NCBI GenBank assembly: GCA_018901655.1
Contig: JAHIEG010000006.1
Coordinates: 1-35,286 of the forward strand
Source: Nanobdellota archaeon
GTDB lineage: Archaea; Aenigmatarchaeota; Aenigmatarchaeia; Aenigmatarchaeales; Aenigmatarchaeaceae
Direction: 5' to 3'
DNA: 35,286 nucleotides
Shown here: positions 1 through 6,081 of the stretch, piece after piece
How the letters are laid out: the number at the start of each line of letters is the position of its first letter
Numbering within the stretch: the first letter of the stretch is position 1
The notes under the pieces: generated by a model
Databases searched by the model: none
What the model saw: the letters and a program-made list of their open reading frames with translations, nothing else
What the model was told of the DNA's origin: nothing
Program-made: the position numbers and the translations under genes

Positions 1-267
1 ATTCCTTTTACTGGGTATTTCAAACCCAGACTTATATCCTTTGCTCAACCCACCTATAGCAAATCCTAATAATAACTCATCCTTTGCATCATCAATACCA
101 CCAAGAAACGCCTTGTAAGATCCATCAGCAAATAAGAATGTTGAAGCTAAGTACCCCAGTGTAGAAATATAATGATATTTAACATAATCGGAGATTTTCT
201 TACCTATAGTCTTTCTTATTTCTCTATCATCTCCTCCTTCTTTTAAAATATATCCTTTTTTTCTCAT
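1..267 (-). CDS. Hypothetical protein, N-terminal part only (runs off left edge)
   Basis: An open frame runs from the start codon to the window edge for 89 codons without a stop. The N-terminus is basic (MRKKGYILKEGGDDREIRK) and is followed by a mixed segment with YHYISTLGYLASTFLFADG and a Gly-rich stretch (GFAIGGLSKGYKSGF). I do not recognise the family and no catalytic motif is visible. Two in-frame ATGs exist (positions 273 and 267). The ribosome-binding site AGAGGAG abuts the first and lies six bases before the second, so I prefer 267. A TATA-like CTTTAAAT lies about 35 bases upstream on this strand. The gene is divergent from the methylthiotransferase fragment at 347. Confidence 0.6.
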   Translation of the reverse strand, partial: MRKKGYILKEGGDDREIRKTIGKKISDYVKYHYISTLGYLASTFLFADGSYKAFLGGIDDAKDELLLGFAIGGLSKGYKSGFEIPSKRN

Positions 268-302
268 ATTCATCTCCTCTAATTAATAATTGAATAGGAA
301 AA

Positions 303-325
303 GATTTAAAGTGAATTATATATAC
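303..325. promoter_or_regulatory. Divergent TATA boxes
   Basis: ATTATATATA (315-324) lies 23-32 bases before the ATG at 347, the spacing of an archaeal leaderless promoter on the plus strand. The minus-strand CTTTAAAT at about 303-310 is placed to serve the leftward gene that starts at 267. Transcription starts are inferred from spacing only. Confidence 0.5.
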
Positions 326-346
326 GTCAAAAAGCTAAATTAATTT

Positions 347-421
347 ATGCATGTCTATGTTGAAACATATGGTTGTAGCGCAAATATAAGCGAATCTGAA
401 ATAATTGCTGGACTTCTGTGA
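347..421 (+). pseudogene. 5' fragment of a MiaB/CDKAL1-type tRNA methylthiotransferase
   Basis: From ATG 347 the frame reads 24 codons and stops at TGA 419-421. It contains TYGCSAN and SESEIIAGLL, the hallmark N-terminus of methylthiotransferases, whose Cys binds the auxiliary iron-sulfur cluster. It matches the start of the full-length gene at 3423 at about 14 of 24 residues, but the DNA differs at most third positions, so it is a diverged homologue and not a recent duplicate. A possible frameshift (KKPTYK in another frame just past the stop) hints that decayed homology runs about 40 bases further. It has its own leaderless promoter. The remaining ~400 codons are absent; a lipoprotein gene follows. 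It is probably the stump of the original gene, although expression of a 24-residue peptide cannot be excluded. Confidence 0.75.
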
Positions 422-486
422 AAAAGCCTACTTATAAATTCTACTATATCGTGTATAAATGAATCTGGGTTTATATTCATATTTCT

Positions 487-530
487 CACTTGAACTTATT
501 CTCAGCGTTTACTCACGCTATTGAGAAGTG
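487..530. other. Bulged stem-loop in the interval between gene fragment and lipoprotein
   Basis: AGCGT (504-508) pairs with ACGCT (515-519) around a six-base loop. TTCTC (499-503) pairs with GAGAA (523-527) after a three-base bulge. CACT (487-490) can pair with AGTG (527-530) across an eight-base left bulge. The stem is well formed for such AT-rich DNA. The rest of 422-614 holds no gene that I can support, only TATA-like stretches near 541-550 and 586-595. Confidence 0.35.
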
Positions 531-585
531 GAATTTGGTGGGTTTATAAAAATTTAATTGTTAGTCTATTTGAAAGATTTAGTTA

Positions 586-604
586 AATTTATAAAGGGGG
601 GGGG
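586..604 (+). promoter_or_regulatory. TATA box and nine-G tract before the lipoprotein gene
   Basis: AATTTATAAA (586-595) is a TATA box about 20-25 bases before ATG 615, so the mRNA would be leaderless or nearly so. It is followed at once by nine consecutive G residues (596-604), which lie between TATA box and start codon. In this AT-rich sequence such a run is conspicuous. It could act as a ribosome-binding site or as a length-variable spacer. Confidence 0.5.
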
Positions 605-614
605 AATTATAGTT

Positions 615-2048
615 ATGAAAATAAAACAGTTTGCGATATTATTTACATTAATTGCAATTGTGATTGTTTCTGGATGCGTAGCAGATCTTTCTCCAAGAGA
701 AATAGCAAAAGCTACTGATGTTGGTCAGGCATTTTTCAGAGCATACCCAAACGCTGAATTAAATGCTGGAAAATATCCTATTGCTTTTATGAGACCATTT
801 ATAGAAGATCTTCAAAAATCATGCCCAGATATTGAATTAAAAGAGTATTGGCGTATAAGTGCTTATGATTTAGATTCTGATTTATCAGCTGTGATATGGA
901 TTGATGCAGAGTCAATGGAACCTACATGTTTCCTAAAATCTTCAGATATAAGATTACCAGAAAGAAATTATAATATTACAATAGCAGATTTACCTAAGAA
1001 TTCAATACTGTTGTCTCCTTTAAATTTAGCAATGGTTGTTGTTTCAGACCCTTGGATTCAAACCGTTGGAAACGATGTAAAACTTGAGGCAAGAGTCTTT
1101 AATCTTGGAGATGTTTCTACAGGACCATTTCTAACTGAATTTAGATATGACGGTTCTATTATCTATGCTGAAACAGTTAGTGATTTGAAGCCAGCAACAG
1201 GAGTAGGTCCTAATGATGAACCAAAACCAGCTGCAATTATTCAAACAGATTGGAGTAATTCAGAAGCAGGTTATCATGATATAACAGTTCAGTCTGGAGA
1301 TTATGTCTCTGCTATGAGATCATTATATTTATACGATGATGGTATAGATCTTGCTTTAATGGGAGATGTAATTTATGATTATGGTAATTATTTATATGAT
1401 AAAGCAATTGAGCAGGAAATAATTTCATTTAAAGCAGGTATACCTTTAATGAATTTGGGTAGTACTGATTCTGAAAGTTTTGATTTTGAAATTAGAGATC
1501 CTGATATAGGAGAGGTTATTTATACTTCATCTTCTCCTGGAATAGAAGGTGGAAGAGATTCAAGAGTTAATACTAACTATTTTACATTGAATATATCACT
1601 TAGAGAAAATACATCATATTATCTAAAGAATCTAGTTTTAAATATTGATCCAGAAAATAAAATAACAGAAGTAGATGAAACAAACAATATGAAAGAATTT
1701 ACTGTAGTTATACCTAAGAAGGCTGATTTAGTTACACAAAATAGTATAGGTGTTAAACCGGGTGCACGTCTAACTTTAAGTGTATATGTAAAAAATAAAG
1801 GTACTGTAGGAACAAATGATTTTATTGTTCAGCTTTGGTCTAACGGATTAATAGATGAAAAGATTGTGAATCTTGAACCAACTCAAGATATATTTGTTGA
1901 TTTTGTATGGGACGGTGCAACTGTAGGTGAGCATAATTTTAAAATAGTTGTGGATTCTGATGATGATGTTGAAGAAGCAGATGAAACAAACAATGTAGCA
2001 TTTGTATATAATCAGCGAATTAGTCAAACTGATTTTTCTGGAAGATAA
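615..2048 (+). CDS. Secreted lipoprotein with CARDB-type repeats
   Basis: The 477-residue product starts MKIKQFAILFTLIAIVIVSGC: a charged N-terminus, a hydrophobic core and a lipobox ending at Cys21, so it is probably lipid-anchored outside the membrane. Residues ~140-460 contain at least two or three immunoglobulin-like CARDB modules. The last two end in the typical VDETNN and EADETNN turns, and LEARVFNLGD, VYVKNKGTVG and VDFVWDG are typical strands. CARDB proteins are adhesive or structural surface proteins; no enzyme motif is seen. An in-frame ATG exists 57 bases upstream (558), but the lipobox and TATA spacing favour 615. It stands between the methylthiotransferase stump and a virus-like relic, in a stretch that looks acquired. 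The specific ligand is unknown. Confidence 0.8.
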   Translation: MKIKQFAILFTLIAIVIVSGCVADLSPREIAKATDVGQAFFRAYPNAELNAGKYPIAFMRPFIEDLQKSCPDIELKEYWRISAYDLDSDLSAVIWIDAESMEPTCFLKSSDIRLPERNYNITIADLPKNSILLSPLNLAMVVVSDPWIQTVGNDVKLEARVFNLGDVSTGPFLTEFRYDGSIIYAETVSDLKPATGVGPNDEPKPAAIIQTDWSNSEAGYHDITVQSGDYVSAMRSLYLYDDGIDLALMGDVIYDYGNYLYDKAIEQEIISFKAGIPLMNLGSTDSESFDFEIRDPDIGEVIYTSSSPGIEGGRDSRVNTNYFTLNISLRENTSYYLKNLVLNIDPENKITEVDETNNMKEFTVVIPKKADLVTQNSIGVKPGARLTLSVYVKNKGTVGTNDFIVQLWSNGLIDEKIVNLEPTQDIFVDFVWDGATVGEHNFKIVVDSDDDVEEADETNNVAFVYNQRISQTDFSGR

Positions 2049-2054
2049 TTGGAT

Positions 2055-2171
2055 TTATTTTTCTAATTTCTTTCTAATCTTCTCCCCAATTCTAGGAGCA
2101 TGTATATAGAAAGCTGGCCTGAAGTGAGGTCTTGGACTCATCTTTATTGTACCAAATTCTAAAAATATCAC
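2055..2171 (-). pseudogene. C-terminal relic resembling an HK97-gp10-type virus head-tail protein
   Basis: On the minus strand a short frame reads VIFLEFGTIK followed by MSPRPHFRPA and ends GEKIRKKLEK-stop. Alternative starts are GTG 2171 and ATG 2141. The pattern EFGT-x-KM-x-x-RPxxRPA is the C-terminal signature I associate with the HK97-gp10 family of phage and archaeal virus tail-completion proteins, which are normally ~120-150 residues. Only the last ~39 codons are present; a stop lies just upstream and there is no neighbouring virus structural gene. This suggests a decayed provirus fragment. The identification rests on motif recall over a short segment. Confidence 0.45.
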
Positions 2172-2205
2172 AGTTAACAATTAATATAACCTCCTAACCA
2201 CATAT

Positions 2206-2217
2206 TCACTATAGTGA
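2206..2217. repeat. Perfect 12-bp palindrome before the LAGLIDADG gene
   Basis: TCACTATAGTGA is its own reverse complement and ends four bases before the start codon at 2222. It could be an operator for the endonuclease gene or a dyad recognition site; nothing in the window decides which. Confidence 0.4.
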
Positions 2218-2221
2218 TAAA

Positions 2222-3421
2222 ATGCCTACAACCAAATCTTTAGATCAACATTTAGAAACAATTAAAAATATTCAAATAAAAAATAAGAATTATTCTGAAG
2301 CTCTACACAGATTGTGTAAAATAAGAAGAAAGTTTCAAAAACAAAATAATCTTGATAAAGAATTAAACAAAATAAAAAAAATAAGAGAAAAGATTAAAAA
2401 TCTCAGATATAATGAAAGAATAAAAAATGAAAAGATTAGCTTCTTCAGAGAGTGCCCAAACTCAATAAGAAAAGATATTTCATTAACTGCTAAAAAAATA
2501 AGAAGAGATGGATACTCTTTCGGGGAAATAGACAAACTGATATTTCGAAAATATAAAGTAAAATTTACATCACACCTCTGGAAAAATGTAAAGTATGTTA
2601 AAATGACAGAATCTGGATTAAAAAGATATCAAAAAAAGATATATAATAATAGAATAAAAGCAAGTAGTATCTCTGGTAAAATAAACAGAGATTCGGGACA
2701 TTTGAAAAAAATGAGAAAAGTGGCATTAGAAGCCTGTGTAAAAAAAGCAAGGGAACGAATACCGCAATCTTCAAAGGAAATGACTAAAGAAAAAGTAAGA
2801 ATATTAGGCCATTGTCTATTTGATGGTGGTTTATCTTATAAGAAAAAAGGATATAATGCTATATTTTACTCAAATAACTCTAATAAATTAATAAATCAAT
2901 TTAAAAATGATATGAAATCTGTTTATGGTTTAAAACCAACAGATATAAGAGAAAGAGAAGATGGAAATAAACAGATTAGATATTGCTGTATTGCTGCAGT
3001 TGAAGATTTATATCAAATCATAGGAAAAACTAATTCCAAAAAGTTACCTGATTTCATATTTAGTTTGCCTAAATCGTGGAAAATATTATTTTTAAAAACA
3101 TTCTGGGACGATGAAGGATGTGTATGTTACAATGATTTTATAGATTCTAAAAATCGAAAGCATATTAATAGGGCTGTAGAAGCCTTTGTCGCAGATGATA
3201 TAATAAGAGCAAAATTAAATAAGCTACATAATGATATTGGTATAGAAACTAGGATATGGAGAGAGAAAATAATTGTATCTAGGATAGAAAATTTAAGAAA
3301 ATTCTCTAAGCTTATTAATTTCTCATCCGGTATCAGAGTAAGTTATCCTAAAAGTAAATGGGATGGTATGGAAAAAAGGAGAGTACTTGAAATGGCTTTG
3401 GGTACAATGAGGGTGTCTTAA
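2222..3421 (+). CDS. LAGLIDADG homing-endonuclease-like protein
   Basis: The 399-residue product has two LAGLIDADG-type motifs: ILGHCLFDGGL (acidic residue D201) and FLKTFWDDEGCV (D296/D297). Each is followed by the usual alpha/beta DNA-binding saddle (NAIFYSNNSNKLINQFK after the first). The two motifs in one chain point to a monomeric enzyme that cuts a long asymmetric site. The N-terminal ~180 residues are very Lys/Arg-rich and contain a helix-turn-helix-like stretch (IRRDGYSFGEIDKLIFRKY), probably an extra DNA-binding region. It is not inside an intein or an obvious intron: the stop codon lies one base before the next gene's ATG, so it is free-standing and probably cotranscribed with it. 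Such enzymes copy themselves and flanking DNA into uncut alleles, which could explain the doubled methylthiotransferase 5' end. Confidence 0.8.
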   Translation: MPTTKSLDQHLETIKNIQIKNKNYSEALHRLCKIRRKFQKQNNLDKELNKIKKIREKIKNLRYNERIKNEKISFFRECPNSIRKDISLTAKKIRRDGYSFGEIDKLIFRKYKVKFTSHLWKNVKYVKMTESGLKRYQKKIYNNRIKASSISGKINRDSGHLKKMRKVALEACVKKARERIPQSSKEMTKEKVRILGHCLFDGGLSYKKKGYNAIFYSNNSNKLINQFKNDMKSVYGLKPTDIREREDGNKQIRYCCIAAVEDLYQIIGKTNSKKLPDFIFSLPKSWKILFLKTFWDDEGCVCYNDFIDSKNRKHINRAVEAFVADDIIRAKLNKLHNDIGIETRIWREKIIVSRIENLRKFSKLINFSSGIRVSYPKSKWDGMEKRRVLEMALGTMRVS

Positions 3422-3422
3422 G

Positions 3423-4715
3423 ATGAATATTTATATACATACATTTGGTTGTTCAGCAAACCAGGCCTTATCTGAGATGATGGCTGGCTTATTACAGAAA
3501 TCTGGATATGAAATTGTAAATAATATTAACAATTCGGATTTAATTATCGTTTCTGGATGTTGGGTCAAAGGCACCACAGAACAACGCTTATTATATTATC
3601 TAAAAGATGTTCAAGAAAAATATCCTAATAAGAAATTAATAATAAGTGGGTGTGCTCCTGAAGTTGGATATAGAAAACTAACAGATATTGCCCCAGATGT
3701 TTCCTTAGTAAGTGCCCATCATATCAAAAAAATCGCACAAGCTGTTAAGAAAACATTGGAGGGGAAAAGAATTGAACTTTTAGGAGAATCAAATGAGATC
3801 GAGCTTTGTCTACCAAGGATTAGGAAGAATCCTGTTATAGGGATAACTGTAATCAGCAGTGGTTATAATGGAAATTGTACATATTGCGCAACAAAAATAG
3901 CAAAAGGGTCGCTATATTCTTATCCAAAAACAAAGATAATAAATGAAATAACATTATCTCTCAAAGAAGGCTGTAAAGAAATATGGATTACTTCTCAAGA
4001 TACAGGAGCATTTGGAATAGATAAATACAATGAATCAAGACTACCCCAACTATTAAATGAAATTTCAAGAATTCCTGGAAATTTTATCACAAGAGTTGGA
4101 ATGATGAATCCAAATAACATTTCACCCATTCTTTCAGAACTAATTGAAGCTTTTAATTCAAAAAAAATCTATAAATTTATTCACATCCCTGTTCAATCTG
4201 GAAATAATGAAATTCTTAAAAAAATGAACAGATTCTATACAATAAAAGAATATGAAGAAATAGTTAAATCGTTTAGAGATGCTTTCAGATGTACTGTTTG
4301 GACAGATATTATTGTAGGCTATCCTGGAGAAACAGATGAACAGTTTAAAGACAGTCTTAATATGATTAAAAGATTAGAACCCGATTGGGTTAATATTTCA
4401 AGATTTGCAAAACGAGAAGGTACCCCAGCTGCTAAATTAAAACAGTTGGATACAGAAGAAATGAAAAGACGAACAAATACAATAACAAATCTAGTTAATA
4501 ATATCGCTCTAAAAAGAAACGAAAAATGGAAAGACTGGATTGGAGAAATACTTATAACAGAAAAAGGTAAAAAAGACGGTCAGTGGATTGGAAGAAATTT
4601 TGCATACAAACCTATTTTAATTAATAAGTCTGGGAATCTTTTAGGAAAGAAATTTAAAGTAAAAATAATTAATGCTACACCTTCAATTTTAGTTGGATGG
4701 CCAATTAAGCCCTAA
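3423..4715 (+). CDS. tRNA t6A37 methylthiotransferase (CDKAL1/e-MtaB type), first radical-SAM Cys replaced by Tyr
   Basis: The family is radical-SAM enzymes that convert t6A37 to ms2t6A37 in ANN-decoding tRNAs. Domain order is complete for 430 residues: an N-terminal UPF0004 domain with cluster ligands Cys10 (TFGCSAN), Cys46 (SGCWVKGTTE) and Cys77 (SGCAPE); a radical-SAM barrel; and a C-terminal TRAM RNA-binding domain (about 370-428). The radical-SAM motif should be CxxxCxxC, but it reads Y148-NGN-C152-TY-C155. The codon is TAT (3864-3866) where one base change would give TGT. Without the third cluster ligand, activity is doubtful. GGGTG before the ATG serves as ribosome-binding site and overlaps the end of the endonuclease gene. 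It is homologous to the fragment at 347. Alternatives are a sequencing error, an inactivating mutation, or an atypical ligand. Confidence 0.9.
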   Translation: MNIYIHTFGCSANQALSEMMAGLLQKSGYEIVNNINNSDLIIVSGCWVKGTTEQRLLYYLKDVQEKYPNKKLIISGCAPEVGYRKLTDIAPDVSLVSAHHIKKIAQAVKKTLEGKRIELLGESNEIELCLPRIRKNPVIGITVISSGYNGNCTYCATKIAKGSLYSYPKTKIINEITLSLKEGCKEIWITSQDTGAFGIDKYNESRLPQLLNEISRIPGNFITRVGMMNPNNISPILSELIEAFNSKKIYKFIHIPVQSGNNEILKKMNRFYTIKEYEEIVKSFRDAFRCTVWTDIIVGYPGETDEQFKDSLNMIKRLEPDWVNISRFAKREGTPAAKLKQLDTEEMKRRTNTITNLVNNIALKRNEKWKDWIGEILITEKGKKDGQWIGRNFAYKPILINKSGNLLGKKFKVKIINATPSILVGWPIKP

Positions 4716-4854
4716 CTGTATTTTTACAATAACCAGTTACTATTTTCTCTCCAACCTCCTCTCCATATATCTTTAATGGAGAATTAAAATCCTGCCGATT
4801 ATCACAATCATCAGTACTATTACACAGTGTCTCAAAACAAAGATTATTACACAT
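4705..4854 (-). CDS. Cys-rich 49-residue microprotein, unrecognised
   Basis: The frame begins MCNNLCFETLCN, has cysteines at 2, 6, 11, 17 and 43, and ends GEKIVTGYCKNTVRA. The composition (balanced charges, DFNSPLKIYGEEVGEK) looks like real protein. Cys spacing suggests metal binding or disulfides, but I do not know the family. GGTG lies about nine bases before the ATG. Its start overlaps the end of the 22-codon frame upstream by eight bases, so the two are translationally coupled or are halves of one frameshifted gene. Its stop lies inside the 3' end of the convergent methylthiotransferase. Confidence 0.5.
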   Translation of the reverse strand: MCNNLCFETLCNSTDDCDNRQDFNSPLKIYGEEVGEKIVTGYCKNTVRA

Positions 4855-4915
4855 CTTTCTTTGCACCAATTACCGTATCTACTAATACACCAAATCCATA
4901 TGTTTTATTTTTCAT
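4847..4915 (-). CDS. 22-residue upstream micro-ORF
   Basis: MKNKTYGFGVLVDTVIGAKK is followed by DV and a stop. GGTG sits six bases before the ATG, a good archaeal ribosome-binding site, and a TATA box (GTTTATATAC, 4966-4975 on this strand) stands upstream. The stop overlaps the start of the Cys-rich microprotein. It may be a leader peptide, or the N-terminus of that protein separated by a one-base shift. Confidence 0.4.
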   Translation of the reverse strand: MKNKTYGFGVLVDTVIGAKKDV

Positions 4916-5045: not shown

Positions 5046-5684
5046 ATGATATTGATACCCGAATGGTTCTTTGGACCACATTCATTTGTTTATATAATAT
5101 GTGCAATGATTGGTTTCTTAGTAAGCTTTTATTCTTATAGAAGTTATCAACTAGCAAAAGGAAAAGATCATCTCTATCTTTATCTTGGCTTTGCTTCATT
5201 AAGCATGGCATTTCTAATTTTAGGAATAACCGAACTATATTCATATCTTAGTATTTCAAGTGGTGTAACTAATATGTTCGAAGCATATTCATCGTTTAGA
5301 GATTTTGGAATATGGATATATTATGCTGGTTCAGTAATTGCATATGCACTGTTTGCATTAGTTTATTTACCTAAAGAGTATAGAATTCTTCCTCTATTTT
5401 TACCAATGTGGTGGAAAGGCTTCCCATACTTCCATTCAATTGCATTATTATTATTATCATTCACTATATTCAGATCAACTGGTAATTGGTTTATAAAAAG
5501 AACTAAAAACTCAATGCTTGTATTTATTTCATTTTTACTAATCGGCTTTTATCACCTATTACTTTACTTTGCAGCATTTAGCGAACTTTTGTTTGTTTTA
5601 GCACATGTGTCACTAATACTCGGATTCCTTTCATTCTTCTATATGATATTTAGAGTGAGTAGGAACAAGGGTCGAAGAAAATGA
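5046..5684 (+). CDS. Polytopic membrane protein, unknown function
   Basis: The 212-residue product has about six hydrophobic segments (roughly residues 13-33, 43-66, 91-109, 128-143, 154-176 and 180-203) separated by short charged loops such as YRSYQLAKGKDH and RSTGNWFIKRTKNS, and ends in a basic tail (RVSRNKGRRK). No catalytic motif is visible. A TATA-like GATTTATTA about 25 bases before the ATG suggests a leaderless mRNA. Its stop overlaps the start of the winged-helix gene by four bases (ATGA), so the two are cotranscribed. A membrane component paired with a DNA-binding partner suggests sensing, but that is inference from position. Confidence 0.75.
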   Translation: MILIPEWFFGPHSFVYIICAMIGFLVSFYSYRSYQLAKGKDHLYLYLGFASLSMAFLILGITELYSYLSISSGVTNMFEAYSSFRDFGIWIYYAGSVIAYALFALVYLPKEYRILPLFLPMWWKGFPYFHSIALLLLSFTIFRSTGNWFIKRTKNSMLVFISFLLIGFYHLLLYFAAFSELLFVLAHVSLILGFLSFFYMIFRVSRNKGRRK

Positions 5685-5959
5685 AAGAAAGACGTTCAAA
5701 AGTTCAAATACTGGTAGATATATTACGAGTTGTACAGAGAAAAGGTGGTAGAGCAAAATCAACTCATATTCTGTATGGAGCTAATCTTTCACATAAAAGA
5801 CTTAAACAACACTTAGATCAACTTTTAGAAAACGAATTTTTAGAAATGGTCAGTCTAAGTGGAAGACCGTATTACAAAATAACTCCAAAAGGTGTTAAAT
5901 TCATAGTTGAGTTCAAAAAAATCGAAGAGATAACAGATGCATTTGGTATATCTATTTAA
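5681..5959 (+). CDS. Winged-helix DNA-binding protein (HTH_45-like)
   Basis: The 92-residue product is a single small winged helix: an N-terminal helix (KVQILVDILRVVQRKGG), a helix-turn-helix (AKSTHILYGANLSHKRLKQHLDQLLENEFLE) and a wing with YYKITPKGVKFI. This layout is the archaeal HTH_45 type of regulator, often found in viruses and as a partner of membrane proteins. It overlaps the upstream membrane-protein gene by four bases. The last codons overlap the TATA box of tRNA-Gly. The target operator is unknown. Confidence 0.8.
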   Translation: MKERRSKVQILVDILRVVQRKGGRAKSTHILYGANLSHKRLKQHLDQLLENEFLEMVSLSGRPYYKITPKGVKFIVEFKKIEEITDAFGISI

Positions 5960-5985: not shown

Positions 5986-6081
5986 GCGCCATTAGTATAG
6001 TGGCTAGTATGCTAGCTTGCCAAGAAACTTCGGTTTCGCAATCAGCTAGTGACAGGGGTTCAAATCCCCTATGGCGCACCA
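5986..6081 (+). tRNA. tRNA-Gly (GCC) with a 21-nt intron at the canonical 37/38 site
   Basis: Acceptor GCGCCAT pairs with ATGGCGC, the T-arm is AGGGG-TTCAAAT-CCCCT, and CCA is encoded (6079-6081). After removal of 6023-6043 the anticodon arm is CTAGC-TTGCCAA-GCTAG, giving anticodon GCC. The intron junctions form a canonical bulge-helix-bulge: TTGC pairs with GCAA between bulges CA|A and TC|A, capped by GAAAC-TTCG-GTTTC. TTTAAAT at 5955-5961 is the promoter. Confidence 0.95.

Follow-up and report, generated by a model that had tools for sequence, protein, structure and literature searches.

A free-standing LAGLIDADG endonuclease gene between a methylthiotransferase gene and a remnant of its 5′ end: a probable gene-end-replacing homing element in Aenigmatarchaeota

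Why should an archaeal genome carry the first 24 codons of a methylthiotransferase (MTTase) gene, with their own upstream region, and about 3 kb further on a full-length copy of the same gene preceded by an endonuclease gene? The arrangement occupies the left end of a 35,286-bp stretch of DNA (the window), which is the whole of contig C7 of a 665-kb Aenigmatarchaeota MAG; all genomes with which it was compared are likewise MAGs. The first-pass annotation had proposed that a mobile element entered or replaced the 5′ part of the native gene. We have followed up this proposal by comparison with relatives and with loci of the same kind in related genomes.

The stranded 5′ end and the empty site

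The stump comprises MTTase codons 1–24 and a TGA (347–421, plus strand, with the TGA at 419–421), and its homology to the MTTase continues to about codon 27 (~427). Its 25 codons match PF00919 (E = 3e-4) and the class MTTase profile (E = 2.8e-14), and it aligns with the MTTase of the related genome G001 at 70% over 27 aa, so that the 24-codon stump of the first-pass annotation stands. The homology stops near 427–431; past ~431, frameshift-aware alignment to the MTTase scores 26.5, no better than shuffled sequence (24.6 ± 4.3). A longer stump of ~60 codons, seen in a tblastn alignment over 347–526, was dropped because the stretch past the stop scores like shuffles.

The 73 bases upstream of the stump (274–346, plus strand) align with the region that precedes the sole, intact MTTase gene of the relatives (G007, z = 9.5; G001, z = 6.4). 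The stretch in front of the intact MTTase of the window, which is endonuclease coding sequence, scores z = −0.5 and −0.9, respectively, against the same promoters. The promoter proposed for the stump is thus confirmed by conservation. Because the upstream DNA of the stump matches the MTTase promoters of relatives, unlike that of the intact copy, the stump is the native 5′ end of the MTTase gene. At the DNA level the stump shares 53/72 positions with the MTTase start of G001, against 44/72 for the new end of the window gene, and over 24 codons it is just modestly nearer to the relatives (a mean of 15.8 identities versus 14.2 for the new end). Stump and new end are identical at 45/72 positions, with no exact core; a shared GCTGG, noted earlier as a short core at the two ends, is simply MTTase coding sequence common to both copies.

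In both G001 and G007 one intact MTTase lies in the same neighbourhood, under a promoter whose homologue in the window stands before the stump. A small Cys-rich ORF (4705–4869, minus strand) is conserved directly downstream of the MTTase in G001 (alignment score 68; shuffled mean 24, sd 5), and the DUF7521-like and winged-HTH genes that follow (5046–5959, plus strand) are 61–78% identical to genes downstream of the MTTase in G001 and are found in G007 too. Given the promoter homology and these conserved downstream neighbours, the locus in G007 and G001 is an empty site, and among the relatives in the class none carries a pair of full-length MTTase genes arranged as in the window. This is the outcome by which the first-pass annotation had expected insertion with replacement of the native 5′ part to be recognised, and that proposal is supported by the comparison. 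The interval from ~430 to at least 3422 is accordingly an insertion, ending in the new 5′ end of the MTTase. A divergent ORF of 91 aa (1–273, minus strand; ORF list), truncated at the contig end, holds the same position upstream of the MTTase as in G001 and G007; no sequence similarity to its counterparts there is detectable, and it was dropped as a conserved neighbour.

The endonuclease and the intact methylthiotransferase

The homing endonuclease gene (HEG; 2222–3421, plus strand) is a single 399-aa ORF with its own start and stop and lies in neither an intron nor an intein; the locus has no Rfam intron match and the MTTase ORF is uninterrupted. Its profile matches PI-PkoII, PI-PfuI (1dq3), I-DmoI and an intein endonuclease, and a Foldseek search with its AF2 model (mean pLDDT 84.8) retrieves I-Tsp061I, PI-PfuI and I-DmoI with E-values of 1e-6 to 1e-7. 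Two LAGLIDADG-type motifs are present, with invariant DG and DEG, and a predicted nuclease activity is plausible because both motifs retain their acidic residues. The call of a LAGLIDADG endonuclease here is therefore sound on profile, fold and motifs. The N-terminal ~180 residues are helical in the AF2 prediction, and relatives such as the L103 endonuclease carry recognised HTH domains at this end. What had been taken for a virus-protein-like relic is this helical N-terminus: the stretch has no PHROG or Pfam match and belongs to the 399-aa ORF. The viral contigs searched hold no relatives of the window HEG, and 13 other archaeal genomes hold few free-standing members of its group. Between the remnant and the HEG lies, as annotated, a lipoprotein gene with CARDB repeats (615–2048, plus strand; PF07705, E = 6.9e-21), which matches relatives at domain level only.

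The intact t6A tRNA MTTase (3423–4715, plus strand; TIGR01578, 411 bits) is full-length and its ATG lies one base past the HEG stop, in agreement with the first reading of the locus. Since the promoter stays with the relic and the gene begins at this distance from the HEG, expression of the MTTase probably relies on the HEG transcript. Trees of both halves place the gene with its own family, without conflict, and lend no support to a wholly foreign copy; either the donor was closely related, therefore, or only a short tract was replaced. Of the earlier suggestion that the element supplied a new MTTase, the new 5′ end remains, and a 5′ stretch contributed by a near relation fits better than a wholly foreign copy.

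Recurrence at other genes

Loci around HEGs of the window's profile in the class were compared with themselves for gene remnants. Eleven HEG elements, in nine genomes, stand between an intact gene and an old piece of that same gene. The 5′ end is affected at the MTTase of the window and at aTGT (archaeosine transglycosylase; L145) in the same genome, and the 3′ end at DPH6 (L033), ThrRS (L103), TopoVI-A (L168), Tes (L169), a radical SAM protein (L191), a HerA/DUF87 ATPase (L173), HtpX (L196) and THEP1 (L108), while at nth (L156) the native gene is split in two. Remnants flank 8/66 HEGs and 1/322 other ORFs of the same loci (p = 4e-6), which excludes chance; these counts take in two ORFs missed by the HEG profile, that of L168, with a LAGLIDADG_3 match just below the cut-off, and the intervening ORF of L033, which is HEG-like by eye only and without a match in Pfam or NCBIfam. 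Within 300 bp, 6/62 HEG–gene pairs reach z > 5, compared with 0/383 controls. The arrangement is also polar: 33 genes lie ≤30 bp from a HEG 3′ end and 4 from a 5′ end, compared with 160 and 114 for other ORFs (p = 2e-4). Several inserts consist of the HEG alone, with the remnant 2–44 bp from the HEG start. At HEG loci outside the Aenigmatarchaeota, mostly from candidate-phyla-radiation (CPR) bacteria, there are almost no gene-end remnants across the HEG, the exceptions being two loci, of which the first is again the ThrRS case and the second a doubtful short-ORF case.

The parallel loci bear on which end is native. At the aTGT element of the window's genome (L145, 2119–6654, contig C5), the second found there, a lipoprotein gene again lies between HEG and remnant. 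The remnant shares 20–22/30 residues with the family relatives G001, G002, G006 and G007, compared with 11–14/30 for the new end, and adjoins the methyltransferase gene that in G006 is the divergent neighbour of aTGT. In the trees, residues 1–330 of the intact aTGT fall with G010, which belongs to another family (UFBoot 100), and residues 360–560 with the gene's own family, so that the gene is clearly a chimera with a foreign 5′ part and a native 3′ part. In G077 (L156, 1982–5167, contig C13), the native nth is split into N- and C-terminal pieces by a segment that carries a HEG and, in the opposite orientation, a whole nth gene of foreign origin. Both pieces are 80–82% identical to the congener G078, whereas for the intact nth the values are 50% with G078 and 64% with G089; the native nth is thus broken, and the foreign one came with the HEG. 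In G001, 3 bp separate the end of the DPH6 remnant from the stop of the gene beside it, and in the congener G007, where the site is empty, the intact DPH6 ends at the corresponding place, overlapping that neighbour by 4 bp, so that the remnant occupies the native 3′ position. The HtpX comparison does not discriminate native from donated end. In the window (by promoter homology), at aTGT and at nth, the remnant is what was formerly part of the recipient's own gene.

Other arrangements were met in the same survey. In G063 (L108, 1894–4720, contig C44) the THEP1 NTPase gene lies between two HEGs whose 3′ ends both overlap it. In G001 (L034, 375–3425, contig C20) a HEG lies between two adjacent RFC-like genes and overlaps the start of the downstream one, with no remnant found; a reading of the two as gene and remnant was dropped, as they are paralogues, and the pair was taken out of the remnant counts. 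In G009 (L007, 526–1600, contig C21) the MTTase 5′ end is duplicated over 99 bp, 88 bp of it identical, with a ~875-bp insert of small ORFs and no HEG between the copies, and in G044 (L203, 5383–8077, contig C6) a cytidylate-kinase-like gene and a C-terminal remnant stand across two PEP-synthase-like genes, again with no HEG between them. These two cases show that a duplicated end may come about, or be retained, with no HEG present, either by HEG loss or by another route.

Mechanism, alternatives and known homing systems

Very probably, the window holds a gene-end-replacing homing element of the kind represented by yeast WHO elements and fungal mobile ORFs (mORFs). The remnant with its native promoter, the empty sites, the recurrence at housekeeping genes and the chimeric or foreign targets in two parallel cases are shown above. 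The free-standing endonuclease would cut the resident MTTase near codon 27, at what is now the remnant boundary, and repair would take in donor DNA in which the HEG is joined to a different, presumably cleavage-resistant, MTTase 5′ end. On the gene side the repair may be recombinational, with an irregular join on the side of the remnant, and the lipoprotein gene upstream of the HEG would come with the donor DNA, probably dragged in when the irregular join was made. The old 5′ end and its promoter would thereby be pushed to the far side as a decaying remnant, leaving an intact MTTase that begins right behind the HEG.

An unlikely alternative is homology-facilitated illegitimate recombination, in which foreign DNA that is homologous at one end only, where the gene lies, integrates, the old end is left opposite and the HEG is mere cargo. 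The HEG-less end duplications at the G009 MTTase and the G044 cytidylate kinase would suit such a process, as would the lipoprotein gene in the window insert, yet it accounts poorly for the concentration of remnants at HEGs, for the fixed polarity of gene–HEG abutment (33 to 4) and for the inserts that consist of a HEG only. Tandem duplication of the MTTase, with decay of the left copy and insertion of unrelated genes between, is disfavoured and highly improbable: stump and gene are indeed homologous and co-directional, but the promoter region of the relatives is found at the stump only, no relative within the class has both copies in full in such an order, and the aTGT chimera and the foreign nth point elsewhere.

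The first-pass annotation had likened the locus to integrating elements that reconstitute their target. For an integrase-type element that targets the 5′ end of a gene and restores it from a carried attachment site, the restored end and the stump would look like attL and attR, and the 88-bp identical repeat at both ends of the G009 insert is of this form. The window insert, however, has no integrase ORF (432–3421), its two ends lack an exact core, and the HEG-linked structure recurs at 10 other loci; endonuclease homing is therefore to be preferred, and we regard integration of this type as extremely improbable. The same can be said of an assembly artefact, for which MAG data and a window that is a whole contig give some occasion, since the same anatomy is found in nine genomes, once on a 150-kb contig, and the window has conserved neighbours downstream and a conserved promoter region upstream.

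In T4-type intronless homing, a free-standing HEG lies near its target and flanking DNA is co-converted, and the window element is similar in this respect; to our knowledge, replacement of a gene end with the old end left as a remnant has not been described for it. Such replacement has so far been described mainly in fungi, and no archaeal or bacterial report was found in the open-access papers searched. It was in 2020 that gene-end-replacing homing elements were proposed to form a third structural class, mainly on the evidence of a single yeast gene (PMC7282813). In the WHO model a sensitive allele is cut near the gene end, and the donor's endonuclease gene and resistant end are copied in (PMC7282813). 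The archaeal elements resemble the WHO elements at FBA1 of Torulaspora and Lachancea (PMC7282813, eLife 2020) in having a free-standing LAGLIDADG-type endonuclease beside the host gene, a replaced gene end with the old end kept as a far-side fragment and, here at aTGT, a chimeric host gene with discordant trees. They differ in that WHO proteins are HO-related intein/zinc-finger proteins that, in a meiotic eukaryote, replace the 3′ end of what is essentially a single gene (PMC7282813), whereas the archaeal ones are LAGLIDADG proteins with helical or HTH N-termini that affect many genes, at both 3′ and 5′ ends and in one case a whole gene. The window HEG itself falls outside the WHO protein family, as it has no intein-splicing or zinc-finger domain (Pfam) and its N-terminal part is predicted to be all-helical. 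The mORFs of fungal mitochondria (Allomyces atp6; Glomus atp6, atp9, cox2 and nad3) likewise place a LAGLIDADG ORF between a gene and its displaced native end, fuse a foreign carboxy-terminus to the host gene and leave a native C-terminus that still matches a close relative (PMC3630166). Unlike the archaeal chromosomal elements, with a 5′ end and promoter in the window, they are confined to organelle genomes and C-termini (PMC3630166).

The same anatomy at eleven archaeal chromosomal genes, at both ends, offers empty sites, chimeric genes and relics for comparison. It also suggests a mechanism by which chimeric housekeeping genes (tRNA-modification genes, an aminoacyl-tRNA synthetase) that can mislead phylogenies may arise, and by which genes may be transferred horizontally in organisms with tiny genomes. 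For each element the prediction is that the remnant boundary marks the site at which its endonuclease cuts the allele of the congener. A broader reading, which we put forward tentatively and at somewhat less than even chances, is that the DPANN archaea possess a large homing-element class of their own, in which gene ends are replaced at housekeeping loci for tRNA modification, translation, topoisomerase, lipid and repair functions. Were this so, 5′ forms would leave the promoter behind and make the host gene dependent on the endonuclease transcript, so that the element could not simply be deleted, and some forms would break a gene and bring a complete foreign substitute.

Two further observations concern the window. 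The intact MTTase is the sole PF00919 MTTase gene found in the host genome, and at position 148 it has Tyr (TAT, 3864–3866), where all 31 other MTTase sequences compared have the leading Cys of the radical-SAM motif CX3CX2C; because this cluster cysteine is otherwise invariant, the protein may be inactive, or the TAT may be a base error. At 5986–6078 the Rfam scan finds a tRNA gene of 93 bases, with a long variable arm or an intron.
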